Part shown: piece by piece, positions 2,507 to 16,288 of the stretch
Layout of the letters: every line of letters begins with the position of its first letter
How positions within the stretch are numbered: the first letter of the stretch is position 1
Translations under genes and position numbers: made by a program
From: a bacterium
Lineage (GTDB): Bacteria; JAJVIF01; JAGGVT01
Direction: 5' to 3'
Length of the DNA stretch: 18,581 nucleotides
Assembly (NCBI GenBank): GCA_021157815.1
Contig: JAGGVT010000085.1
Span: 1 to 18,581 of the forward strand
The notes under the pieces: model-generated
Database searches by the model: none
What the model was told of the DNA's origin: nothing
What the model saw: the letters and a program-made list of their open reading frames with translations, nothing else

Positions 2507-2550
2507 AATATTCAATCTTTTTTGAAAAAAATGAATCGATGAGGTGAATG

Positions 2551-5493
2551 ATGTCACGCACCAATGTTTTTCTAACACTACTTTTCATTACAGCTTTATT
2601 TGGATGTTCCTCCTCAAACAATTCGATTATTCCCGGTATGACGCCTGGTTCAGGCAGTTTGGACTCATCCGGCTATGACAGTCTTCCCGTTTTTATATCA
2701 GATTTGGATGCTCAGGGCAATCCGGCTGATGGATACGGGATTTTGGGGCTGTTTGAATTGGTCTTTTCAGATGAAAACGCGTCTCTTGTTCCGCTGAGAA
2801 AATCGGCATTGGAGGATGTACTTGAGGCTGTTGATATCACCAATTTCCTTTCGTTGGCGCCATGCACAGATTGCGTGAAAATCGCGTCGGTGGAACTTGA
2901 TCCGGATGGGAATGCGGTCGTTTCAATTGGAATAAAGCATCCATTTGGAGCTGGTGATCCGCTGAAGCCAATATCGGGGCGGAATCGAGCCGACCTGCAT
3001 GTTTTTAACGTTGAGGGAATAGTTATCTCAAATGCCGCGGGAATATCCTTTCCCGGAATAGGAGCAACCACTGCGGGATTATATTTGAAAAATGCAGATG
3101 GCCTAACGGGGTATCTGGATGCGTCACTCGAACGTATATTCGCAACAGATGCTACAGTTCACCCTTATATATTACATTTCGATGATTATTCAGCCGGGAA
3201 CTTTGATCCGGAATCGCTAACGGGATTCACGAGTGTAACAGATCCACCGCCGTCAGGAAATCTGGTGATGGCTATGGGCAGTGATTGCGACTATCAGGAT
3301 TACATCTTTGATCTTGATGAAATGGGTAACGTGGATTTTATCATCGCGGTTGGATGTACATACGCTGTCAGTGCAGCGTCAAGATCGGAGAGATTCACGC
3401 CTGAATACCGAGTGCCGCAGCATAACAAGAAAGCTGCGAGCGAGGTAAGTGTTGAGATTTTAACCAATGATCTTATAGGTGGCGATGTTGCATCAGAGGC
3501 AACTCTGCAGGTTAAGGTCGTTGATGTAAACCACGCGGTACCAGTCGGTACCGAACTTAACGAAATGCGAGCGGACAGTTCTGTTGGTGGTGTGGATGTC
3601 ATGGTCCCAGGCGTTACATCCAGTGTGGTCAATTTCTCAACGACCCCATTGAGCGGAACAGGACATGACCCGTCTGATCCACTTGTCTTTGAGGGTGTTA
3701 TCACGAATTCATCCGGTGGTGACGGTGGAAATTATCTCGGGATTGTTAAGGTTATTGACAGTTATATTCCCGGGCAGAATGTCGCGACACTGTTAAACGG
3801 AATGGATGGAATAACTCGAGTTGGCCCTGTAGAAAACCCACTTGGCGGCCTATTTCAAATTGATGAATTCGCCACTTACCAGGTTTTCAATATCGAAGTG
3901 ATATCGTATCAGGTCGAGCCGCAGTTCACATTCACACCGGAGCCATTCTATGATGACATTGGACCTGAAGGCTCTACAGAGGATCCTGTGCCGACCGATT
4001 GGGATGTCTATTTCGATGCGTCGCTTTCGGTAGGCGCGACAGCTTATGACTGGGACTTCGATAGTGACGGGACATATGAGTTCGTTGGTGACACTACGCC
4101 GTACAGGACCTGGCAGTACGCATATGATTCTGCGGAGACTTATCCGGTCACATACCTTGCTACTTTACGCTTAAACGGAAACGACACATGGACAATTACT
4201 CATCCGATTGTGGTTTCGCGAAGCATTTATGTAGATGGCGACTACACCGGTGTTGGAGATGGTTTGCCCGGCTCTCCATACAGCACGATAATGGAAGGCA
4301 TTAATAATAGCGTGACGGGGTGGACTGTCAGAGTTGATGCCGTTGAGACTGGAAATGGCTACTATGAGGAAGCGGTCGTGTTGGCATCAGGCATTGACCT
4401 GGTTGGCGACAACTGGAACGGTGGAACGGGAAAGCCGAAAATACACATAAACAGCAGTGGCGGCTGGAATGTTGTCGTCGATCATATGGTGGGAACTGAT
4501 GTCTCGGATGTAAAGATCAGCGGTTTCGATCTGACCACAAACGAGTTTGAGATTGAATGGTGGGGTGGGTTGGGCAACGGAAATTTCCAGTTGCTGTATT
4601 TGACGGATTGCTCTGATATCGCTGTTACAAACTGCAAATTCGGGACCACAGTCAATGCATGTCGCCTGACAGGTATCCTCGTCAGCGGTGGAACTGATCT
4701 CATGATCACGCATAACGAGTTCGTAAACCTCTTCAACACGCGAGACTACAATTGGTCCAGCGGAGTGACAGCCATCGGTCTCAACAATGTCACCAACACT
4801 CAAATAAGACACAATGAAATTCATCATATTAACTATCAGAACCGGCATAATTACGGGGATGCCATCATTACTCGTACTCAAGGCATTACTTGTTCCAGCT
4901 GTTCGAGCGGTCTCCAGGTGAACAACAACCTTATCTACGACATCTATGATCTCTCAGCAGCGGCTGGAAATTTCATGGGGGTCGCCGGCTATTACTACTA
5001 CAATTATATAGACGGAGTAACAATCTCTAACAGCCCCGGAGCAGTTGTGGCAAACAACACGATTGACGACTTAAATCCTGTGGGAGCGGCTGGTGATCAG
5101 GCAGGTGCGGTCTGGGGTGTGCGTTGTGGTACAGCCACACAAGCTGGAGAATCAATCGTGGTGAAAAACACGATTACGAGCAATCTGGTCGCGACTGAGA
5201 TCACAACGTACCCGTTGTATCGTGGCGCTGGATTCAATTCTGTTTTTACACTGACTGTCGATTACTCTTGTGTCTATAATCTCGATCTGACTAACGGTGG
5301 AAGTGAGTATTATAATCTTGCGGTCAAGGGAACGGGATCATTCGACAATACGGACAATCAGGATCCAAACTATGGCGGTCCGGGACCGACTTTCTATCAT
5401 GTCGGCAACCTGGCTCTTGTAAGCGATGACGGCAGCGAGATGGGAGCTTTCGGCGGTCCGGACGGGGACTGGATTCCACCCAGCCAGGAGTAG
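2551..5493 (+). CDS. Large surface lipoprotein with PKD-like and right-handed beta-helix domains
   Basis: The product is about 980 aa. A lipoprotein signal peptide (residues 1-18) ends in LFG-C19, a lipobox. A serine/asparagine-rich linker follows, then a conserved-looking module of unknown function (about 40-400, including CTDCVKIASVELDPDG and LHFDDYSAGNFDPES). A PKD-like domain at about 469-555 carries YDWDFDSDGTYEF. From about 557, YVDGDYTGVGDGLPGSPYST opens a right-handed beta-helix with many N/T/I ladder repeats, closing with GSEMGAFGGPDG. I infer an outer-membrane or cell-surface protein, possibly binding or cleaving polysaccharide, but I see no catalytic motif I can name. ATG codons occur at 2548 and 2551; GAGGTG at 2541-2546 leaves only 3 nt from GAGG to 2548 but 6 nt to 2551, so I prefer 2551. 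The tail matches the partial gene at 1-269. A strong terminator follows at 5572-5603. Confidence 0.85.
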   Translation: MSRTNVFLTLLFITALFGCSSSNNSIIPGMTPGSGSLDSSGYDSLPVFISDLDAQGNPADGYGILGLFELVFSDENASLVPLRKSALEDVLEAVDITNFLSLAPCTDCVKIASVELDPDGNAVVSIGIKHPFGAGDPLKPISGRNRADLHVFNVEGIVISNAAGISFPGIGATTAGLYLKNADGLTGYLDASLERIFATDATVHPYILHFDDYSAGNFDPESLTGFTSVTDPPPSGNLVMAMGSDCDYQDYIFDLDEMGNVDFIIAVGCTYAVSAASRSERFTPEYRVPQHNKKAASEVSVEILTNDLIGGDVASEATLQVKVVDVNHAVPVGTELNEMRADSSVGGVDVMVPGVTSSVVNFSTTPLSGTGHDPSDPLVFEGVITNSSGGDGGNYLGIVKVIDSYIPGQNVATLLNGMDGITRVGPVENPLGGLFQIDEFATYQVFNIEVISYQVEPQFTFTPEPFYDDIGPEGSTEDPVPTDWDVYFDASLSVGATAYDWDFDSDGTYEFVGDTTPYRTWQYAYDSAETYPVTYLATLRLNGNDTWTITHPIVVSRSIYVDGDYTGVGDGLPGSPYSTIMEGINNSVTGWTVRVDAVETGNGYYEEAVVLASGIDLVGDNWNGGTGKPKIHINSSGGWNVVVDHMVGTDVSDVKISGFDLTTNEFEIEWWGGLGNGNFQLLYLTDCSDIAVTNCKFGTTVNACRLTGILVSGGTDLMITHNEFVNLFNTRDYNWSSGVTAIGLNNVTNTQIRHNEIHHINYQNRHNYGDAIITRTQGITCSSCSSGLQVNNNLIYDIYDLSAAAGNFMGVAGYYYYNYIDGVTISNSPGAVVANNTIDDLNPVGAAGDQAGAVWGVRCGTATQAGESIVVKNTITSNLVATEITTYPLYRGAGFNSVFTLTVDYSCVYNLDLTNGGSEYYNLAVKGTGSFDNTDNQDPNYGGPGPTFYHVGNLALVSDDGSEMGAFGGPDGDWIPPSQE

Positions 5494-7102: not shown

Positions 7103-7326
7103 ATGTGATTGGATTAGGCATTTCGACAAGTGGATTTGATATCTTGCCGAGTGTTGGATGATGCTTGCAATTAAGGGGTAAAAGGGGGGAATATGCATTT
7201 GTGAGCTGATTCATAGTGTACTGACTGGAACACCTTAGGATGGTGGGGAATCACCATACATGATTATGTCATTTATATAAATTATTATTACCCGTCAAGG
7301 GTTAAATACTAAAAAGAGAAATTGTT

Positions 7327-7344
7327 ACAACTTTCGGAGGTTGT
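7327..7344 (+). promoter_or_regulatory. Hairpin overlapping the acs Shine-Dalgarno site
   Basis: ACAACTT (7327-7333) can pair with AGGTTGT (7338-7344), with one G-U pair, around a UCGG tetraloop. GGAGG at 7336-7340, 7 nt before the ATG at 7348, is partly in the loop and partly in the 3' strand. The stem would limit ribosome access if stable; it is short. Confidence 0.35.
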
Positions 7345-7347
7345 GTA

Positions 7348-9309
7348 ATGGCTGAAGAGAAATCAATTACCTCAATGATGCACGAGGACAGAGTATTCCC
7401 GCCGTCCGCTGAATTCAGCGCGAAGGCGTACATTAAGAATCTTGACGAGCACAAGAAAATATCTGAAGAGGCTGCCAAAGATTTCGAGGCTTTCTGGGCA
7501 GAAAAAGCTGAGCAACTTGACTGGTTCAAAAAATGGGACAAGGTTTATGACTGGGATCCGGAAAAAGCCGAGTGCAAATGGTTTGACGGTGGCGAGCTGA
7601 ACGTATCCTATAACTGCCTCGATCGCCACATCAAAACGGAGAAGAAAGACAAAGTTGCCATAATCTGGCAGGGCGAGCCTGAGGAAGATGTAGTGAAATA
7701 CACCTATCAAGATCTTTACAACGAAGTAAACAAATTCGCGAACGTACTCAAGAACAACGGCATTCAGAAAGGCGACCGGGTTTGCATTTACATGCCGATG
7801 ATTCCGCAGCTGGCAATCGCAATGCTTGCATGTACACGAATCGGCGCGGTTCATTCAATCGTTTTCGGCGGTTTCTCCGCTGAGAGTTTGAAGGACAGAG
7901 TTCTTGATTCCAAGTGCAAGATTCTTATCACTGCTGATGAGGGTCTCCGCTCAAGCAAACCCATCCCTCTCAAGAAAGCCGCGGACGCATCCCTTGAGAG
8001 TGTTGACTGTGTCGATAAAGTGATCGTCTATAAAAGAACCGGCGGCGACATCAACTGGGTTGATGGCCGTGATCTCTGGTGGGACGATGAAATGGCGAAA
8101 GCGGATGATTTCTGCGAGCCGGAACACATGAAAGCGGAAGACCCGCTGTTCATTCTTTACACATCAGGAACAACCGGAAAACCCAAGGGTGTTCTTCATA
8201 CAACCGGTGGATATCTCACCTATGTCTATCAGACAACCAAATGGGTTTTTGATATCAAGGACGAGGATGTATTCTGGTGCACCGCTGATATCGGCTGGAT
8301 TACCGGACATTCATATATCGTTTATGGCCCTCTTGCGCTTGGCGCGACATCACTTATGTTCGAGGGCGTTCCGAGTTATCCGAAAGCTGACAGGTTCTGG
8401 CAGGTTGTTGAAAAGTTTAAAGTCAACATTTTCTACACCGCTCCGACAGCGCTTCGCTCAATGATGCGAGAGGGCGACACCTGGCCGCAGGGAAGAGACC
8501 TCTCAAGCCTGAGACTTCTTGGCACGGTTGGCGAGCCGATTAATCCGGAAGCGTGGATGTGGTATTACAATATTATTGGAAAAGGAAATTGCCCGATTGT
8601 TGACACATGGTGGCAGACTGAAACAGGCGGAATCCTGATTACAGGTCTTCCCGGTGCGGTCCCAATGAAACCAGGCAGTGCGACGCTTCCGTTCCCCGGC
8701 GTTTTCCCGAAAATCGTTCGAGAGGATGGAACCGAGGCTGACGCTAACGAGGGCGGTCTTCTTATGCTCGAACGACCATGGCCGGGTATGATGAGAACAG
8801 TTTATGGCGATCATGATCGTTTCAAACAAACTTATTTCTCACGAATCAAAGGCGTATATTTCACCGGTGACAGCGCTCGACGGGATGAGGATGGCTACTA
8901 CTGGCTGATGGGCCGTATTGATGACGTTATCAACATTTCCGGACACAGAATCGGCACCGCGGAAGTTGAAAGCGCTCTTGTTGCACATCCGAAAGTCGCT
9001 GAGGCCGCAGTTGTTCCTATGCCCCACGAAATCAAGGGACAGGGACTCTATGCCTTCGTTACTTTGGTTCAAGGCGTTGAGAAAACCGATGAACTCAAAG
9101 CGGAACTCGTAGCGCAGGTTCGAAAAGAGATTGGACCTATCGCGAAACCGGACAAAATTCAGTTCGCGGATGCTCTTCCGAAAACACGTTCTGGCAAGAT
9201 CATGCGGCGAATCCTGAAAGCTCTTGCAGAGGGCAAGGATTCAGTAGGCGACACAACTACGCTTGCCGACCCGTCAGTTGTTGACATGCTCATCAAAGAG
9301 CGACAGTAA
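7348..9309 (+). CDS. acs: Acetyl-CoA synthetase (AMP-forming)
   Basis: This 653-residue cytoplasmic enzyme converts acetate, ATP and CoA to acetyl-CoA, AMP and PPi through an acetyl-adenylate. The length equals that of Salmonella Acs (652 aa), and all core motifs are present. They are the ATP-binding A3 loop [11 protein letters not shown] (271-281), [10 protein letters not shown] (419-428) in the acetate and adenylate pocket, YFTGD (504-508), [20 protein letters not shown] with the hinge region, and the A10 motif [11 protein letters not shown]. The last carries catalytic Lys617, the residue acetylated and switched off by Pat-type enzymes in homologues. GGAGG lies 7 nt before the ATG. The gene stands alone between a leader with promoter and hairpins (7001-7344) and a strong terminator (9324-9360). 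A CstA transporter and an OFA transporter nearby fit organic acid assimilation. Propionate use cannot be excluded, but acetate is the best call. Confidence 0.97.
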
Positions 9310-9323
9310 ACCGAAACAAACCA

Positions 9324-9360
9324 ACGCCCCCCCTAAACGGGGGGCGTTTTATTTTTTTTC
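9324..9360 (+). terminator. Intrinsic terminator of acs
   Basis: ACGCCCCCC (starting at 9324) pairs with GGGGGGCGT (9339-9347) over a short loop. It is followed by TTTATTTTTTTT. It starts 14 nt after the acs stop codon. Confidence 0.95.
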
Positions 9361-9366
9361 TTTTAA

Positions 9367-9402
9367 ATATGCGGGGTCGGGTATATAATATACCCCGCAT
9401 AT
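9367..9402. repeat. Hairpin with two alternative pairings
   Basis: ATATGCGGGGT (9367-9377) is the perfect inverse of ACCCCGCATAT (9392-9402). Inside it, GGGTATA and TATACCC form a second near-perfect inverted repeat that shares the ACCCC stretch. It directly follows the acs terminator. Confidence 0.6.
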
Positions 9403-9407
9403 ATGGG

Positions 9408-9628
9408 CAAGGGGCTTAAGAGCGTGTCGGGAAAGCATATTGATTCTGAAACATACCATTTTCCTGATAACTCTCGGATGCCGCCCACACATCACGTCTT
9501 TTTGTGATTTGTGGGTGATTACTGCGAAGTCATGCGATTTCACCCATAAAGCCGAGACGGCTGTATGGGCGGCACCCAGCGTTTTGAATCAAATTGACAC
9601 CTTGCACGACAGGCTCGTAAGCCCCTTG
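9408..9628. repeat. Nested palindrome of about 220 bp before the MFS gene
   Basis: The outer arms are 22 nt with two mismatches: CAAGGGGCTTAAGAGC then GTGTCG (9408-9429), against the inverse of 9607-9628. Middle arms ATGCCGCCCACACA (9478-9491) and TGTATGGGCGGCAC (9562-9575) pair 12 of 14. A short inner pair, GGGTGA (9513-9518) and TCACCC (9540-9545), lies between them. The whole block could fold as one long hairpin as RNA or DNA. It has no credible ORF. It may be a small mobile element or a structured RNA; the sequence alone does not decide. TTGACA at 9594-9599 lacks a matching -10 box. Confidence 0.6.
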
Positions 9629-9663
9629 TTATTCATTACTAAATAAATCATCTGGAGTTTTAC

Positions 9664-11019
9664 ATGGCGGATACAGAGCAGAAAGTATTGAATCGGTGGA
9701 TGGTCGTCGTAGGTGCGATTCTTATCCAGCTTTGCCTTGGGGCTATTTACGCGTGGTCGGCTTTTACAGGCAAACTGACCGTAGCTACCGAAGCTGGTGG
9801 ACACTACGGATTCACCACAACGCAAACACAGGCGATATTCTCCGCGGGCCTGGCATCATTTGCAATCATAATGGCGTTTATTGGAGGTCCGTGGCAAAAG
9901 AAATCCGGTCCTAAAATCGTTGCTATGACCGGAGGAATTGTACTCGGATTAGGGTATATCCTTGGTGGTATCTTCGGAAATTCCTTTATTATGCAGTTTA
10001 TATGTATCGGAATAATCGGTGGCGCGGGAATCGGGCTTGCTTATGTTGTCCCGATTGCTGTAGGCGCAAAGTGGTTCCCCGACAAGAAGGGGATGGTTAT
10101 GGGATTAGCGGTTGCCGGATTCGGATTCGGTGCGACAATCTGGGTTAAACTCGCCGGCTCATGGGGACATCTTCTCGATATGAGCCTTATGGGCTTGCCC
10201 GGAGTTCAATCCGTTTTCCTGATTTACGGAATCGCATTCCTGGTAATTGTGCTGATTGGTTCAATCTGGATGGTTAATCCGCCGGATGGATGGTTGCCTG
10301 CGGGATATACTCCACCTGTGCCAAAACAGGATGCCGGAGTGTCAACCGACACAAAAGGCTCGGTTGAATTCAATGTTAAGGAAATGTGGTCAACTCCACA
10401 ATTTTATATGCTCTGGCTTACGTTTATTTTCTCCGCTGGTACAGGATTAATGGTAATTGGCTGCATTAAACTGTTTGGAATCGACGCGCTTCAAGCGTCG
10501 TCCGCTAGACTAACCGCGGAGGCAGCGGCGGCGGCAGCCGGTACAGCGATGGCATGGTACGCAATCCTCAACGGGCTTGGCCGTATTGTCTGGGGTACTG
10601 TTTCGGATAAACTTGGCAGGAAAATATCGATTTTCCTGATGTCCCTTTTCCAGGGAATTATCATGCTCGTTTTCCTCAAACTTGGCGGAACAGTCGCGGG
10701 ACTGACAATCGGCGCGTGTATAATCGGATTCAACTTCGGTGGTAACTTTGCATTATTCCCGGCGGCAACAGCGGACTTTTTCGGCAACAAGAATGTCGGG
10801 ACAAACTACGGCTGGATGTTCACCGCGTACGGTGTCGGCGGAATTATAATGCCTATGATAGCCGGATATTTCAAGGATAAAGCAGGCGGCACAGGCGACC
10901 CGGCGGCATGGAGCGCTCCGTTTTTAATCGGTGGTGTGGTTTGTATTATCGCGGCGATTATCTCAATCCTTGCAAAACCGCCGCAGAAGAAAATAACCGG
11001 TGAGACAGTAACGGAATAA
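9664..11019 (+). CDS. OFA-family MFS transporter (oxalate/formate antiporter-like)
   Basis: The product has 451 residues and 12 predicted membrane segments. The N-terminus NRWMVVVGAILIQLCLGAIY then AWSAF (residues 11-35) is the hallmark opening of the OFA branch of the major facilitator superfamily. The second half-domain contains the MFS motif A variant GTVSDKLGRK, and GIGLAYVVPIAVGAKWFPDKK is also typical. The central loop (about 210-235) is cytoplasmic and hydrophilic. Known members exchange oxalate/formate or carry other small monocarboxylates; many are annotated only by family. GGAG at 9654-9657 sits 6 nt before the ATG. An alanine-rich stretch EAAAAAAG (about residues 286-293) is unusual but in frame. 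Placement after acetyl-CoA synthetase suggests acetate, pyruvate, lactate or formate as candidate substrates; this is inference. A bidirectional terminator follows. Confidence 0.9.
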   Translation: MADTEQKVLNRWMVVVGAILIQLCLGAIYAWSAFTGKLTVATEAGGHYGFTTTQTQAIFSAGLASFAIIMAFIGGPWQKKSGPKIVAMTGGIVLGLGYILGGIFGNSFIMQFICIGIIGGAGIGLAYVVPIAVGAKWFPDKKGMVMGLAVAGFGFGATIWVKLAGSWGHLLDMSLMGLPGVQSVFLIYGIAFLVIVLIGSIWMVNPPDGWLPAGYTPPVPKQDAGVSTDTKGSVEFNVKEMWSTPQFYMLWLTFIFSAGTGLMVIGCIKLFGIDALQASSARLTAEAAAAAAGTAMAWYAILNGLGRIVWGTVSDKLGRKISIFLMSLFQGIIMLVFLKLGGTVAGLTIGACIIGFNFGGNFALFPAATADFFGNKNVGTNYGWMFTAYGVGGIIMPMIAGYFKDKAGGTGDPAAWSAPFLIGGVVCIIAAIISILAKPPQKKITGETVTE

Positions 11020-11040
11020 TTCGAATTGAGAGAGATGAAT

Positions 11041-11076
11041 AAAAACAACCCCGGATATCATGTCCGGGGTTTTGTT
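11041..11076. terminator. Bidirectional intrinsic terminator between convergent units
   Basis: AACCCCGGA (11047-11055) pairs with TCCGGGGTT (11063-11071) across a 7-nt loop. TTGTTT follows on the plus strand. GTTTTTATT follows on the minus strand. It can stop the MFS transcript and also the minus-strand locus ending at 11291. Confidence 0.85.
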
Positions 11077-11136
11077 TATGTTCAGAGTTGACTCATTTAT
11101 CGTCCCTGAACAAGTCTATTATTACCAACATTAGCT

Positions 11137-11276
11137 AATTTGTACCGGGTACACATTAAAATTGAGGGATCTTTCTGATTATGGCAAATATACTCAGTTG
11201 CTTGTATTAATGCCTGTTTGAGAGAATTCCACAAAACGATGGATTGGGGCAATTTAATTCGTACCGGGTACCAATT
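11137..11276. repeat. GTACCGGGTAC inverted-repeat element
   Basis: The left arm AATTTGTACCGGGTACACAT continues TAAAATTG (11137-11164). The right arm CAATTTAATTCGTACCGGGT continues ACCAATT (11250-11276). They are near inverse of each other, and each contains a near-palindrome GTACCGGGTAC. The element is about 140 bp, with no transposase. The open frame on the minus strand at 11097-11282 spans the whole element and I do not accept it as a gene. I infer a non-autonomous element. Confidence 0.6.
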
Positions 11277-11290
11277 AACCACAAGGCGGA

Positions 11291-14050
11291 TTAATCGTTC
11301 ACGCTAAGCTCTTCGCCTTGTTTGATTATCTTTACGTTTATTTTCGTTTCAACAACTTGTGGTTTGACTGTGATGGCATCGCCGGGTTTAAGGTCAAACT
11401 CGTAGTATGATTGGTCGAATTTGTAATGTCGGGGAAGTTTGCTCTCATCGATGATTAAGACATAGTGCCCGGGCGGGAGCGATTCGAAATTGAATCCGCC
11501 TTTTTCATCCGTAATTCTGAATTCACCGCCGTTGTCAGAATGCAATTCAACCACGATTTCGAATGGGTCGTCGTTTTCACTTCGAATTGGAAGCGATGCG
11601 GCATCAATCCTGCCGGATATAGTGGCAGCGGTTGTGACACCAAAATCAAACAGCATGACACCGCCTTCGACATCCACCTTGACAGGCGTTTGCGGAATTG
11701 TGATACGGTTACTCCCGATGTTCTTCAGGTTGACTGTAATCGCATGTTCACCGGGTTTGATTCCCTTGATAGTGTATTTGCCATCCTGGTCGGTCAATGA
11801 TGCCCTGTCCTTTGTATGAATGAGCACACCGGGAATTCCCTGATTGTCTTTCTCAAGGTCGCGGATATGTCCGGTGATTTGAGCTATGTCATCCCGTCTT
11901 TCCAGCTTGATGCTTGTTGGGACTGTATATTCAACCATGACAGCGGTATCGCTTGTATCTTTGCCATTTTTCCGGATCATGGAATGGCGCGCGCGGACTT
12001 CAATCTGATTGTCGTTTTTATATTTATATCGAAGCGTGAGAGGTATATATATGCGTCGATATGAATTTCGCACGTTGTCTATATAAACACCGGATGCAAT
12101 ATATGCCCTGTCGGAGAAATCATATTTGAAATTCATGCCTGTTCTGGTTGAACTGCCACGATTAATATCGAAAGAATGGCCCTTGCGATAGCCCATAACC
12201 CCTGCAATCTCGAAATCATCGCTGACATCCCATGTGATTGTGCCATTATAGTTTATATGGTCTCTGGAATCCTGTAAAACCAGATCAGTGTTTTTTCCAT
12301 ATTCAAATCTGCCGTTGATGTAGTAATCGCCCCATCGATGGTTGGCGGCTAGTCTGAAGTAATTTTCCTTTGTGTTATATCTTGTTGATTCGAAGATGTT
12401 ATCGCGGACTGATGAAATGAATTCCACGCTTAAAAGTGTCGAGACGGAGGGGGCGTATGATGTACCCAGCCTGTAATATTCCTCTGAGAGGTCTGATATA
12501 AAATCCGTGTAGGATGTTAGATTACGTTGTTGGTTGCGCCAGTTACCGAATAGCTTGATTTTATTGCTGATTGGAACCATTCCGAAACATTCGGTTATGT
12601 TCAAATCATGGTAATAACCGCCAAATCCCGGGCTTGTGTTAATATGCCTTGCCATGAACTCGCCATCTTTGTGATTCACCCGCCATTCGATTCGATATGC
12701 GTTGTTGCGTCCGGGCATATCAGAATCGACATTGGCCGCATATTCGGCATCGAGATTATAGCTGCTGCCATCGCTGAATTCTCCCCTAAAGCCGACAATG
12801 GAGCGGTTATCAGGCGTATGTAACCGCTGTGTGTCAGTATCAGCCAGAAGCAGGTTCACACTTAATTTCTGATTGTCGCTCGGATTCAAACCAAGCGATA
12901 TGCCGATATCATTCTCATCATCGGGATACCTGTTTGAATGAGCGTAAAATGTTTCCAGTGAGAAGACATCGAATTTTGAATCAAACTTGATGCCTCGCCC
13001 ACTTTTAGGATTGTCCAGAAGCGGAGTTAGAATATAATGCCCATCCCCAAGGAAAATACTGTAGTCTTCATTGTCATACAACAGATGAATATGCTCATCG
13101 TTGGTCAGGAATATCATGCTCTTTTCACGCTCAGGCCCCTGATATAGAAGATCCAGACTGCTGGATTCATCTTGATCCAGCGCGCCGCTCAAACTGACTT
13201 CAACCTGGCCATTGAAGTTTACATCATCCCGATTATCAACCACAGCCTTGAATTTAACTTTCCCGGGCAGTTTGAGATACTCCTCGAAATTACCTGAATC
13301 GCGCGGGTAAACAATGATCTTTTCAGAGGTTCTTTGTGTGATTGGCTCTGCATTATCGTTAATGGGCATGATATGTGTCTCAAAACCGAAAATGGCATTG
13401 GAAACACGATAGATATTTGAGTTAAGGGAAATATCAAGCTGTATGAATGTAAATTCGTTCACATCAAGAGAAAGATGCTCAATATGCAGATTAACAATTC
13501 CAACATCGTTGTGGAAAGGAACAATATTAATGCTAACAGGAATGTTGCCGATGTTTTCGATTTTAAATTCCAGACTGTAATCCTCACCCGCCAACGCGGA
13601 GTTAATCGCCTGGCTAATTGAGGTTATTTCAATTGCAGGATTTGGAAGTACGGTAACATTGATTTGGTGCTCCTCAATTAAGGAGCCATCAGAGTCGTTT
13701 TTCAACTGCAGCATGACGGCATAAGTGTCCGCAAGCGCGTTTTGAGGTATGAAAAAACTGGCAAGCCGCATTATGGAGTCATTTGGCGGGATAGCGATAT
13801 CACCTGTGCCGGAGACTGACTGCCAGTTGTCAGGAAGTTTGATCGAGATTTTGCGGTTTATTTCCCGGATTCCCGGATTTGTGACAGTCACACCGGTAAC
13901 AACCAATTCCTTTGGCTGTGTTTGGATGGATTTTGGGCTTGTGATGGAAAGCAATTCAGCGCGCGTGCCAACAGCATAAGCGTTAAAACCTACTGTTGTC
14001 AGCAGAAGACATGCAAGTGCGAAGATATATGTAATTCGTGTTATTGCCAT
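11291..14050 (-). CDS. Usher-like outer-membrane barrel protein with Ig-like and carboxypeptidase-regulatory-like domains
   Basis: The product is 919 aa. A signal peptide (1-26, ending NAYA) precedes two Ig-like beta-sandwich regions (about 30-135 and 138-250, NEW3/CARDB-like spacing). A long region follows (about 262-715) with alternating polar/hydrophobic and aromatic residues and no long helix, as expected for an outer-membrane beta-barrel. It includes SIFLGDGHYILTPLLDNPKS and GRGIKF (331-356), reminiscent of the 'GD...GRG' strands of ushers and other large barrels. Two carboxypeptidase-regulatory-like domains close the protein (about 725-805 with GVLIHTKDRASLTDQDGKYT, and about 806-905 with DEKGGFNFESLPPGHY). 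By position and architecture I infer the outer-membrane pore or anchor of a fibre-assembly locus. It is not recognisably FimD-family. It starts 8 nt after the chaperone-like gene stop with no clear Shine-Dalgarno site, suggesting translational coupling. TonB-type transport is less likely because no plug domain or TonB box is seen. Confidence 0.7.
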   Translation of the reverse strand: MAITRITYIFALACLLLTTVGFNAYAVGTRAELLSITSPKSIQTQPKELVVTGVTVTNPGIREINRKISIKLPDNWQSVSGTGDIAIPPNDSIMRLASFFIPQNALADTYAVMLQLKNDSDGSLIEEHQINVTVLPNPAIEITSISQAINSALAGEDYSLEFKIENIGNIPVSINIVPFHNDVGIVNLHIEHLSLDVNEFTFIQLDISLNSNIYRVSNAIFGFETHIMPINDNAEPITQRTSEKIIVYPRDSGNFEEYLKLPGKVKFKAVVDNRDDVNFNGQVEVSLSGALDQDESSSLDLLYQGPEREKSMIFLTNDEHIHLLYDNEDYSIFLGDGHYILTPLLDNPKSGRGIKFDSKFDVFSLETFYAHSNRYPDDENDIGISLGLNPSDNQKLSVNLLLADTDTQRLHTPDNRSIVGFRGEFSDGSSYNLDAEYAANVDSDMPGRNNAYRIEWRVNHKDGEFMARHINTSPGFGGYYHDLNITECFGMVPISNKIKLFGNWRNQQRNLTSYTDFISDLSEEYYRLGTSYAPSVSTLLSVEFISSVRDNIFESTRYNTKENYFRLAANHRWGDYYINGRFEYGKNTDLVLQDSRDHINYNGTITWDVSDDFEIAGVMGYRKGHSFDINRGSSTRTGMNFKYDFSDRAYIASGVYIDNVRNSYRRIYIPLTLRYKYKNDNQIEVRARHSMIRKNGKDTSDTAVMVEYTVPTSIKLERRDDIAQITGHIRDLEKDNQGIPGVLIHTKDRASLTDQDGKYTIKGIKPGEHAITVNLKNIGSNRITIPQTPVKVDVEGGVMLFDFGVTTAATISGRIDAASLPIRSENDDPFEIVVELHSDNGGEFRITDEKGGFNFESLPPGHYVLIIDESKLPRHYKFDQSYYEFDLKPGDAITVKPQVVETKINVKIIKQGEELSVND

Positions 14051-14058
14051 TGATTATA

Positions 14059-14898
14059 TCATTCGACGTCGATTTTGAGCTTGTACTCCGCTCCAACAAT
14101 GTATTCATCTCCATCATCAGTAACAACCAAGGCGACATATTGGCCCGGTTTTAAAACACCCAGGTTTAAATGCTGCCTGATGCTGGTTTCAGGGAAGAGG
14201 CGTTTTCTAATACCCGTGAATCTTCCGACAACCGAACCGTCATTGCTGTAAAGGTCAACCCAGACATCAGGCCTGAGCCACCTTTCACCGGTGTTGGACA
14301 GGTCAACATTCAAAATTATTTCCTCGTTTTCATCTTTCGCCAATCCTGCCGATGTAAACTCGATTTCCTTTTTCCCTGTACCAGGAATTGATGCGACAAT
14401 CTGAATGCCGAATCGTACGATTTCCTGAATTGCCACGTTTATGTCGTCTTCGCCATTGATATCAGGTTTGATTTCAGTTGCGATCGGTTCAACGATAATT
14501 ATGCACCAGTATGTTCCAATGAGTTTTTCATCATCGGGGACAGCCAATGTGTAGTTAATAGTTGCAATGGAATCGGGTGGAATATGAACCAGTGAGCGTT
14601 CCAGATTGAGCCAGCCTGTGCATGACCTTTCAAGTGAACCAGGTTTCTTGTAGAAGGTTTCACCATCTGAATTGAAAGAGTAATCCTGAGGTGATATTCT
14701 GACAGAAACCTCTTCATTACTGCTTTTATTCTTGATTATTATTTTTCCCTTCGTTTCAAGCCCGGGCTTGATGGAATATTCGTGGGTAAGTTCGCTAATG
14801 ATGCTTATATCCGCGAACGCTGGAATGGCTGCACTCGTTACCATGAAGAAGATAAACAGGCAGATTGGAAATATGTAGTTTTTGCATTTTAAGTTCAT
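14059..14898 (-). CDS. Periplasmic Ig-fold chaperone-like protein (PapD/DUF916-like pattern)
   Basis: The product has 279 residues and a signal peptide (1-29, ending AFA). Domain 1 (about 30-145) shows the order typical of pilus chaperones and DUF916-type domains. YSIKPGLETKGKIIIKNKS gives the first strands, then VSVRISPQDYSF, then PGSLERSCTGWLNL. IPPDSIATINYTLAVPDDEK and LIGTYWCIIIVEPI close the domain. Domain 2 (about 165-279) is a second beta-sandwich ending LKPGQYVALVVTDDGDEYIV. I infer a two-domain periplasmic chaperone for the small secreted proteins encoded upstream; the family membership is by pattern only. GGAGT (complement of 14905-14909) lies 6 nt before the ATG. It is 18 nt downstream of the 159-aa gene and 8 nt before the barrel gene, so the three form one operon. 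Confidence 0.65.
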   Translation of the reverse strand: MNLKCKNYIFPICLFIFFMVTSAAIPAFADISIISELTHEYSIKPGLETKGKIIIKNKSSNEEVSVRISPQDYSFNSDGETFYKKPGSLERSCTGWLNLERSLVHIPPDSIATINYTLAVPDDEKLIGTYWCIIIVEPIATEIKPDINGEDDINVAIQEIVRFGIQIVASIPGTGKKEIEFTSAGLAKDENEEIILNVDLSNTGERWLRPDVWVDLYSNDGSVVGRFTGIRKRLFPETSIRQHLNLGVLKPGQYVALVVTDDGDEYIVGAEYKLKIDVE

Positions 14899-14916
14899 TA
14901 TTTGACTCCGGTTTTA

Positions 14917-15396
14917 CTATGTATCAACCACAGTGTAGATAATATTTGTGGTGTATGTTCCCGGTGCGATACTTACCGAGACACCACTGATTTTATATTG
15001 AATGTCGATTCCGGTGACATCATCAGTACCAGTGAAGAACTGCTGGTCGACACCGGATAGCTGAAGATAAGTTGTTCCGCCTGCTGTTGAGCCACCGCTA
15101 CCGCTGGATGTTCTTTTTACATGGACATACATATCCGAAGACCATGAGATATCAGATTTTCGAATGTCAATTCTCCATGCATCCCCACCGCCCAGTGTGT
15201 TGGCGATATCAACAATTACCTGGTCAACTGCGCTTTCATATTCAGATTCAAGGTCAGAGCCGGGACCGGCGGAAAGATCGAGAACATCGATGTTTTCTGT
15301 CCAGCTTCCGGTCAGTGTTATGTCAATCGAATGGACAGGTGATGTGGCAAATACCACAAGGATACTCAAAAGAACTATTTTGAGAATTCTGGACAA
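14917..15396 (-). CDS. Small secreted beta-rich protein, candidate fibre subunit
   Basis: The product has 159 residues. It starts with TTG at 15396, preceded by AAGGA (complement of 15406-15410) at 9 nt. No alternative ATG precedes the mature region, and the TTG gives an intact signal peptide (1-23, ending VHS). The mature part, about 136 aa, is beta-rich, with a Ser/Gly-rich loop (SSGSGGSTAGGTT). It ends GTYTTNIIYTVVDT, an alternating strand like the last strand of pilus, spore-coat-U and WxL-type subunits. The final strand resembles that of the 162-aa protein at 15800-16288 (HVYTVTYTLTDQ). I recognise no named family. As the first gene before the chaperone-like and barrel genes it is a candidate exported subunit or tip protein. 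Confidence 0.65.
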   Translation of the reverse strand: MSRILKIVLLSILVVFATSPVHSIDITLTGSWTENIDVLDLSAGPGSDLESEYESAVDQVIVDIANTLGGGDAWRIDIRKSDISWSSDMYVHVKRTSSGSGGSTAGGTTYLQLSGVDQQFFTGTDDVTGIDIQYKISGVSVSIAPGTYTTNIIYTVVDT

Positions 15397-15421
15397 GTAA
15401 TCGCGTCCTTAAAAATAATTT

Positions 15422-15448
15422 ACCGGATAAAAATATGAAATATCCGGT
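15422..15448. repeat. Leader hairpin upstream of the 159-aa gene
   Basis: ACCGGATA (15422-15429) pairs with TATCCGGT (15441-15448) around an 11-nt AT-rich loop. It lies just upstream of the AAGGA site of the minus-strand operon, so it would sit in the mRNA leader. No U-run follows it on either strand, so it is not a typical terminator. Confidence 0.5.
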
Positions 15449-15496
15449 GGACTTTAAAACTCATTAAGTCTATCGGCAAGATGAGGAGGTAAATTG

Positions 15497-15577
15497 ATGT
15501 ATATATATAGAGAAAAGTTTCCCGAGACCTCCGAAAAAGAAAAAAATGATGCTGGTTTGCGTAATCGGCAAGAGTAG
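15497..15577 (+). CDS. Possible 26-aa ORF with strong Shine-Dalgarno (doubtful)
   Basis: GAGGAGGT (15483-15490) lies 6 nt before an ATG at 15497. The frame runs 26 codons (starting MYIYREKFPETSEKEK) to TAG at 15575-15577. The peptide is charged and without membrane segment or signal. The Shine-Dalgarno GGAGGT is the inverse of ACCTCC at 15527-15532 inside the frame, so it could be masked. It is antisense to the operon leader. There is no supporting homology, and chance is quite possible. Confidence 0.2.
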   Translation: MYIYREKFPETSEKEKNDAGLRNRQE

Positions 15578-15665
15578 ATTCCGGGTCAAGGAAGCTGACT
15601 TAGAACATATATAGTTTGTCATTCCGACCATCTTCCTCCCTCCGGTCGTCAGATGTCGGAATGAC
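15576..15665. repeat. Palindromic repeat, second copy of the GTCATTCCG / CTTGACCCGGAATCT family
   Basis: AGATTCCGGGTCAAG (15576-15590) is the exact inverse of 496-510. Downstream, GTCATTCCGACCATCT (15618-15633) pairs with AGATGTCGGAATGAC (15651-15665), one base bulged, forming a hairpin. Part of this element lies inside the gap between the two subunit-like genes. Confidence 0.55.
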
Positions 15666-15715
15666 GATTGAACAGATTTTGTTTTTTAGAGGCTCTGGAA
15701 GATAAAAGATGCCTG

Positions 15716-15752
15716 AAAAAGCAAAACCGGAAGACTATGAAATGTCTTCCGG
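15716..15752 (-). terminator. Intrinsic terminator of the 162-aa gene
   Basis: On the minus strand, CCGGAAGAC and GTCTTCCGG (complements of 15744-15752 and 15727-15735) form a perfect 9-bp stem with an 8-nt loop. TTTTGCTTTTT follows. It separates this gene from the operon starting at 15396. Confidence 0.88.
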
Positions 15753-15799
15753 CACAAAATCAGATTTATATCAGGTATTTGGCGGGATACGGCTCCCTC

Positions 15800-16288
15800 T
15801 TACTGGTCGGTCAATGTGTATGTGACAGTATAAACATGATCACCGAGAACGGCGCTAGATGTAGCTGTTGCATCATAGGTCAGTGTCTCGTCGGCATCAT
15901 TACATTGTATGAGTGCGGTAATCACGTCAGTTGCGCTGGCTGCGATTAATGTTACCTTCCCGGCGCTTGTTCCGCTGGTACTCGTTACAGTTGCTTCGAG
16001 TGTGAGACCTACTTCACCATTTGTCACGGTATATTGTCCTGTAATCTTTTTATTCGTGGAGCTGTTTGTAGTGTAGGACAACGTGGATGTGGCGTCTGTC
16101 TCGGTGTTTGGCGGCTGACCGGCAGTTGCGGAATCGATTGTGATTGTAATATTTCCCGACACAGCAAGTTCGTTGATTGCGGATACGGTAACAGTCACAT
16201 CATGATTATCAGTATTGGCTGCCATAAGTGGGCATGTCATCATCATGACGATGAAAATCCCAAGTAGAATTCTTGTTACGAGTTTCAT
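15800..16288 (-). CDS. Small secreted beta-rich protein, candidate major fibre or surface subunit
   Basis: The product has 162 residues with a signal peptide (1-24, ending LMAA). The mature region, about 138 aa, is rich in Thr, Ser, Ala and Val. It has alternating strands (HDVTVTVSAINELAVSG, ITITIDSATAG) and a single Cys (in IQCND). It ends SAVLGDHVYTVTYTLTDQ, a closing strand similar to that of the 159-aa protein. GGGAG (complement of 16296-16300) is 7 nt before the ATG. The gene has its own terminator (15716-15752), so it is a separate unit, which would permit a higher expression level, as with a major subunit. I recognise no named family. The role is inferred from context and fold pattern. 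Confidence 0.65.
   Translation of the reverse strand: MKLVTRILLGIFIVMMMTCPLMAANTDNHDVTVTVSAINELAVSGNITITIDSATAGQPPNTETDATSTLSYTTNSSTNKKITGQYTVTNGEVGLTLEATVTSTSGTSAGKVTLIAASATDVITALIQCNDADETLTYDATATSSAVLGDHVYTVTYTLTDQ

Follow-up and report, generated by a model that had tools for sequence, protein, structure and literature searches.

A candidate chaperone-usher-type locus with ties to the alpha chaperone-usher and WxL/WxLIP families in a contig of the bacterial lineage JAJVIF01

Here we describe a locus of four minus-strand genes in an 18,581-nucleotide (nt) bacterial contig (JAGGVT010000085.1, GenBank assembly GCA_021157815.1; this whole stretch is called the window below), which with a probability of roughly 0.7 specifies a system of the chaperone-usher type for building surface fibres out of small immunoglobulin-like (Ig-like) subunits. 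Because its chaperone is homologous both to EcpB, the chaperone of the E. coli common pilus, and to the WxLIP proteins of Gram-positive bacteria, the best reading is of a widespread, undescribed class that forms a bridge between the alpha chaperone-usher and WxL/WxLIP families. We found no paper describing such a system, and since the library available to us was short of most subscription journals its novelty is provisional. The initial annotation of the window had proposed an undescribed fibre or surface secretion system combining chaperone-usher logic with an echo of WxL proteins, and that proposal gains support here from gene order, homology to WxLIP and EcpB, a WxL match of the subunits, their C-termini and barrel-like strand content.

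The four open reading frames (ORFs) at 11291-16288 encode two small secreted proteins (S1 and S2), a chaperone and a large barrel protein, and the last three form a tight operon with intergenic gaps of 18 nt (S2 to chaperone) and 8 nt (chaperone to barrel protein), exactly as first annotated. The features of the locus, with protein lengths in amino acids (aa), are as follows.

15800..16288, minus strand: S1, secreted beta-rich subunit, 162 aa, in its own transcription unit (ORF call; sequence-like partners in L047, L048 and L050)
15726..15753, minus strand: intrinsic terminator after S1 (hairpin of -22.2 kcal/mol, z -5.7)
14917..15396, minus strand: S2, secreted beta-rich subunit, 159 aa, TTG start, first gene of the second unit (ORF call)
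14059..14898, minus strand: periplasmic two-Ig-domain chaperone, 279 aa, of the WxLIP/EcpB superfamily (homology)
14395..14442, minus strand: predicted donor (G1) strand of the chaperone, residues 153-168, INVAIQEIVRFGIQIV (column statistics)
11291..14050, minus strand: outer-membrane usher-like protein, 919 aa (domains, model and profile)
13301..13954, minus strand: N-terminal PapD/NEW3-type Ig-like pair of the barrel protein, residues 33-250 (model)
11906..13288, minus strand: predicted transmembrane beta-barrel of the same protein, residues 255-715, about 24 strands (low-confidence model)
11294..11893, minus strand: its C-terminal transthyretin-like (CarboxypepD_reg / SdrD_B) domains, residues 720-919 (family matches)
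11047..11071, no strand assigned: bidirectional terminator closing both the S2-chaperone-barrel operon and a convergent gene of the major facilitator superfamily (MFS) (terminator prediction)

S1 is a separate transcription unit, as initially annotated, because a strong terminator hairpin, equalled in stability by none of 200 shuffled sequences, lies 3′ of its stop codon. A comparable hairpin also follows the first subunit gene in L048, and the S1 terminator may attenuate transcription from S1 into the S2-chaperone-barrel unit. The window belongs to a draft genome of 3.2 Mb in 221 contigs, from a phylum represented by four species, and this genome holds a single copy of the chaperone.

Taken alone, the window chaperone gave a weak match to DUF916 (WxLIP_PGBD; E 0.014), at 15.9 bits against the PF06030 cut-off of 27.3, which bears out the DUF916 echo noticed initially; a search of the PDB with the single sequence returned noise only. 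Thermotoga maritima was a named control match for the DUF916 model. A profile of 32 chaperone homologues, on the other hand, matched WxLIP of Enterococcus faecium (9i25_C/9i1y) over both Ig domains with an E-value of 1.3e-13, and in the same search EcpB with an E-value of 0.014. Direct hhalign comparison of this profile with two alpha chaperones, EcpB being one of them, gave 95.9% (E 6.4e-9, 202 columns), as opposed to 8%, near noise, for FimC. By profile comparison, the chaperone family is thus homologous to both WxLIP and EcpB.

The alignment also predicts a G1 donor strand with alternating hydrophobic residues in this two-Ig-domain protein. Across the 32 homologues the hydrophobic share at residues 155-163 runs 0.56-0.12-0.84-0.19-0.56-0.28-0.69-0.06-0.88, so that positions 155, 157, 159, 161 and 163 are mainly hydrophobic and the residues in between mainly not; Arg162 is conserved in 25 of them. 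In the hhalign register, residues 157, 159, 161 and 163 align with the EcpB donor positions Ala111, Ala113, Ala115 and Ile117, mutation of three of which abolishes subunit capture (PMC4654587).

Both subunits end like pilins. A glycine 14 residues from the C-terminus is a pilin hallmark, and S1 (C-terminus GDHVYTVTYTLTDQ) and S2 (C-terminus GTYTTNIIYTVVDT) each have one, followed by an alternating strand. A glycine-x-aromatic motif 13-15 residues from the end occurs in 28 of 84 subunit candidates and in 32 of 881 other ORFs, a 13-fold enrichment (p 2.8e-16) in which several of the 32 background matches are themselves unlisted subunits. S2 is 39% identical to its counterpart in L050, and the subunits form one family: profiles trained on two thirds of them regained 122 of 140 left-out instances, a figure aided by close paralogues, and the other matches were mostly further small proteins from the same loci. 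No Pfam or NCBIfam family fits these proteins, and the WxL domain (PF13731) gave no Pfam match among 42 subunits and none in the window genome. Nonetheless, the subunit family profile matches WxL chain 9i25_A over its full length (E 5.7e-4). This entry, entitled 'WxLIP from Enterococcus faecium locus A bound to long WxL', holds WxL as chain A and WxLIP as chain C, so that subunit and chaperone profiles built independently retrieve both partners of one complex. The match suggests that the subunits are related to WxL, a homology that is suggestive rather than firm because against two other WxL-like proteins the profile comparison covered the last strand only; comparisons with FimA and EcpA were near noise.

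Subunits vary in size and number among the loci. A protein of about 450 aa in L060 and L061 has the subunit C-terminal pattern at its end, as might be expected of a two-domain tip adhesin. L063 has at least five closely similar subunit genes of 180-181 aa in a row upstream of the chaperone (8687-15817, minus strand), which suggests recent subunit amplification.

The arrangement recurs well beyond the window. A first distribution profile, built from four chaperones and used on 385 genomes, matched 53 of them under about 43 different family labels, and small secreted proteins with the shared C-terminal pattern lie upstream of the chaperones in these loci. An ORF matching the barrel profile follows the chaperone within 1.5 kb in 30 of 42 loci, usually within 100 nt. 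This pairing is not circular, because most of the pairs had already come up in the first barrel search, whose query sequences were all from the window's own class. Gene order is also kept in two sister genomes: G003 encodes four small secreted proteins, a chaperone of 294 aa and a barrel protein of 930 aa, and G001 three small secreted proteins, a chaperone of 299 aa and a barrel protein of 976 aa. The absence of a conserved neighbourhood had been set beforehand as one of two points on which the proposal could fall, and on this point it stands. L015 holds a further partial cluster and the fourth species of the class has none, so that the distribution is patchy. Two related genomes are labelled 'bacterium' (Lake Pavin sediment) and 'Planctomycetota bacterium'. 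Scans of genome contigs gave no match with the single chaperone and three loci, all of the same class as the window, with the chaperone alignment; scans of viral contigs gave no match.

Loci that depart from this layout include L064 (0.8 Mb, single contig), which encodes two chaperone homologues with C-terminal membrane helices (7257-8222 and 9811-10830) and no barrel, together with subunits of about 250 and 516 aa bearing the usual C-terminal pattern; it is possibly a WxL-like, monoderm version. In L073 and L079 the chaperone-like proteins are about 545 aa long and possibly double, and secreted proteins of 385-600 aa then stand in place of the usual barrel.

The 919-aa protein is likely an outer-membrane barrel and plausibly an usher. 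Its C-terminal domains match CarboxypepD_reg (1.3e-11) and a SpaA/SdrD-type family (2.3e-8), and CarboxypepD_reg and SdrD_B domains are found at the C-terminus in 25 and 24, respectively, of 26 homologues; near the N-terminus there is a weak NEW3 match (0.016). A PDB search with the single sequence returned noise only. An AlphaFold model from an alignment of four sequences was better in the N-terminal Ig pair, with predicted local distance difference test (pLDDT) scores mostly of 70-87, than over the whole protein. Residues 33-136, the first Ig domain, match the first domain of WxLIP 9i1y (Z 11.4, root mean square deviation 2.5 over 103 residues), and the second matches a PapD-like domain of CEP192. 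Residues 263-708 contain 24 strand segments in this model of mean pLDDT 51, and a count of amphipathic segments gave 23 in the barrel region, above shuffled sequences; together these suggest a barrel fold. Foldseek placed FimD ushers at an E-value of about 2e-5 with a low template modelling score, and a second-look structure comparison gave Z 10.6 for PapC and Z 10.3 for FimD, from a list in which other barrel classes, unranked by Foldseek, may be missing. The usher domain PF00577 was found neither in the barrel protein and its homologues nor anywhere in the window genome, which therefore has no classical usher, and profile comparison with FimD was near noise.

We propose that the system most likely works like a chaperone-usher pathway. 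S1 and S2 would enter the periplasm via Sec as unstable, incomplete Ig-like domains, where the G1 strand of the first chaperone domain (residues 153-168) may cap each subunit beside its C-terminal F strand. The N-terminal PapD-like Ig domains of the barrel protein would then receive the chaperone-subunit complex, and the N-terminal strand of the next subunit would displace the chaperone, which the barrel would release, in donor-strand exchange; the growing fibre would leave through the barrel of about 24 strands. S1, with its own unit, may be the major subunit; S2, which shares a transcript with the machinery, may be a minor subunit, a tip subunit or the one that initiates the fibre. That the four parts form a single machine, and that fibres are made, we infer from the organisation and homologies described above.

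Several observations weigh against such a fibre-assembly pathway. No Pfam usher, PapD or pilin family reaches threshold in any window protein, and neither PapD_N nor PapD_C occurs in the window chaperone or among the families found in its 32 homologues. The carboxylate anchor of archaic and alternative chaperones, in EcpB Arg89 on strand F1 (PMC4654587), is not kept here: its column holds Cys132 in the window chaperone and Ala, Gly or Ser in most homologues. Twelve of the 42 loci have no barrel-profile match downstream of the chaperone. The barrel model as a whole is poor, LptD (Z 11.9) and OpdK match it as well as ushers do, all of them at Z 10-12, and no usher-like plug-sized insertion is visible in it at a pLDDT of 51. 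A model of S2 fused to the chaperone, made from an alignment of subunit homologues only, failed (pLDDT 43), and profile comparison of the subunits reached at most the last strand of EcpA, besides stopping at that strand in the two further WxL-like proteins. Neither structure model is strong enough to establish an usher fold or a subunit-chaperone complex. Judged by the models that define them, the usher, PapD and WxL families do not include the system, which also fails some alpha-family features.

A rather unlikely alternative is a surface coat without polymerisation. The chaperone would then act as a structural clamp in the manner of WxLIP or as a transport chaperone, the barrel would export single WxL-like decorating proteins, and there would be neither donor-strand exchange nor a fibre. 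Its nearest solved relatives, WxLIP and WxL, are indeed described as a surface platform on peptidoglycan, for which a WxLIP hairpin strand has been predicted to slot in next to, and parallel with, a strand of WxL (PMC10599100). The likeness to the WxL/WxLIP (DUF916-DUF3324) clusters extends from chaperone homology over both domains and the subunit match to WxL of the same complex to the presence of several small beta proteins and one two-Ig protein per cluster. The WxLIP clamp is, however, anchored by a C-terminal membrane helix, which is absent from the window chaperone and from all 30 barrel-linked chaperones; the window system adds an outer-membrane barrel, and its subunits lack a Pfam WxL match. 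Barrel-less versions with a chaperone membrane helix do exist: three such chaperones, in two genomes (L064 and L077), all occur without a barrel, a split of small numbers in the direction expected if the barrel-less forms are monoderm. Several paralogous subunits per locus, one of them in a separate unit, and pilin-type C-termini suit polymerisation better than a coat.

It is less probable still that the locus belongs to the known alternative (alpha, EcpB/EcpC, CooC) chaperone-usher family and has diverged too far for Pfam to recognise it. The subunit-chaperone-barrel order is that of ecpA-ecpB-ecpC (CS1/CFA class); the two-Ig chaperone resembles EcpB by profile (96%) and in a donor-strand register with a large P0 residue; and comparison with alpha ushers aligns the last barrel strand and then the C-terminal domains that follow it, in unchanged order (70%). 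However, the alignment with those ushers does not extend to the barrel or the N-terminal parts, and the window protein has an N-terminal PapD-like Ig pair and no over-threshold CooC_C (PF15976; E 0.17), a domain not found in the window genome. The chaperone lacks, besides the Arg89 anchor, the domain-2 cysteine pair of EcpB (PMC4654587), having no cysteine after residue 132; the subunits cannot be aligned with EcpA, and WxLIP scores far above EcpB in the same search. Classical and archaic pili (FimC/FimD, CsuC/CsuD) share the overall logic, the subunit Gly-14 and periplasmic domains C-terminal to a barrel, here a predicted one of about 24 strands, and differ in that the window proteins match neither PF00345 nor PF00577, compare with FimC/FimD near noise (8%) and show no visible plug. 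Finally, the genes could be mere neighbours: a barrel that serves as a porin, as a receptor or as an LptD-like exporter, next to small secreted proteins unrelated to it. The poor barrel model and its equal match to LptD and OpdK would allow this; the recurrence of order and spacing in 30 of 42 loci, spread over many families, and the membership of the subunits in one family, make it very improbable.

Elsewhere in the window, a 24-base near-palindrome, TTAATTnGTACCCGGTACnAATTAA, lies 3′ of the barrel gene at 11136-11152 and 11255-11271 (minus strand). Its core pattern has 42 copies in the draft genome and none for a reversed control, and the copies are often paired, 94-150 bp apart and in one orientation. 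The intervening stretches belong to at least two sequence families (window, C95, C99 and C172; C29 and C175), others looking unrelated, and the pairs are perhaps a mobile or mosaic repeat element. A 981-aa lipoprotein-like secreted protein without a Pfam match is encoded at 2548-5493 (plus strand), the second half of which has, by eye, the look of a right-handed beta-helix. A CstA-type permease, an acetyl-CoA synthetase and an MFS transporter stand together on the plus strand (612-2321, 7348-9309 and 9664-11019) and are perhaps a cluster for pyruvate or acetate use, unrelated to the fibre locus.

Chaperone-usher pili are usually treated as Proteobacteria-centred clades, and WxL proteins as a separate Gram-positive platform of unclear mechanism. 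A wider and more tentative idea, on which we would not rely, is that donor-strand capping of Ig-like surface subunits may be one ancient system in two forms: a diderm form, in which a soluble chaperone works with an outer-membrane barrel and to which this class would belong as distinct from all known chaperone-usher clades, and a monoderm form without a barrel and with a membrane-anchored WxLIP, so that the class would link chaperone-usher pili to WxL proteins. If the chaperone-usher reading of the locus is true, fibre assembly of this kind would extend to many uncultured groups, and whether WxLIP is itself a donor-strand chaperone would become a testable question. The class would also give names to many proteins now filed as carboxypeptidase-regulatory-like or hypothetical.

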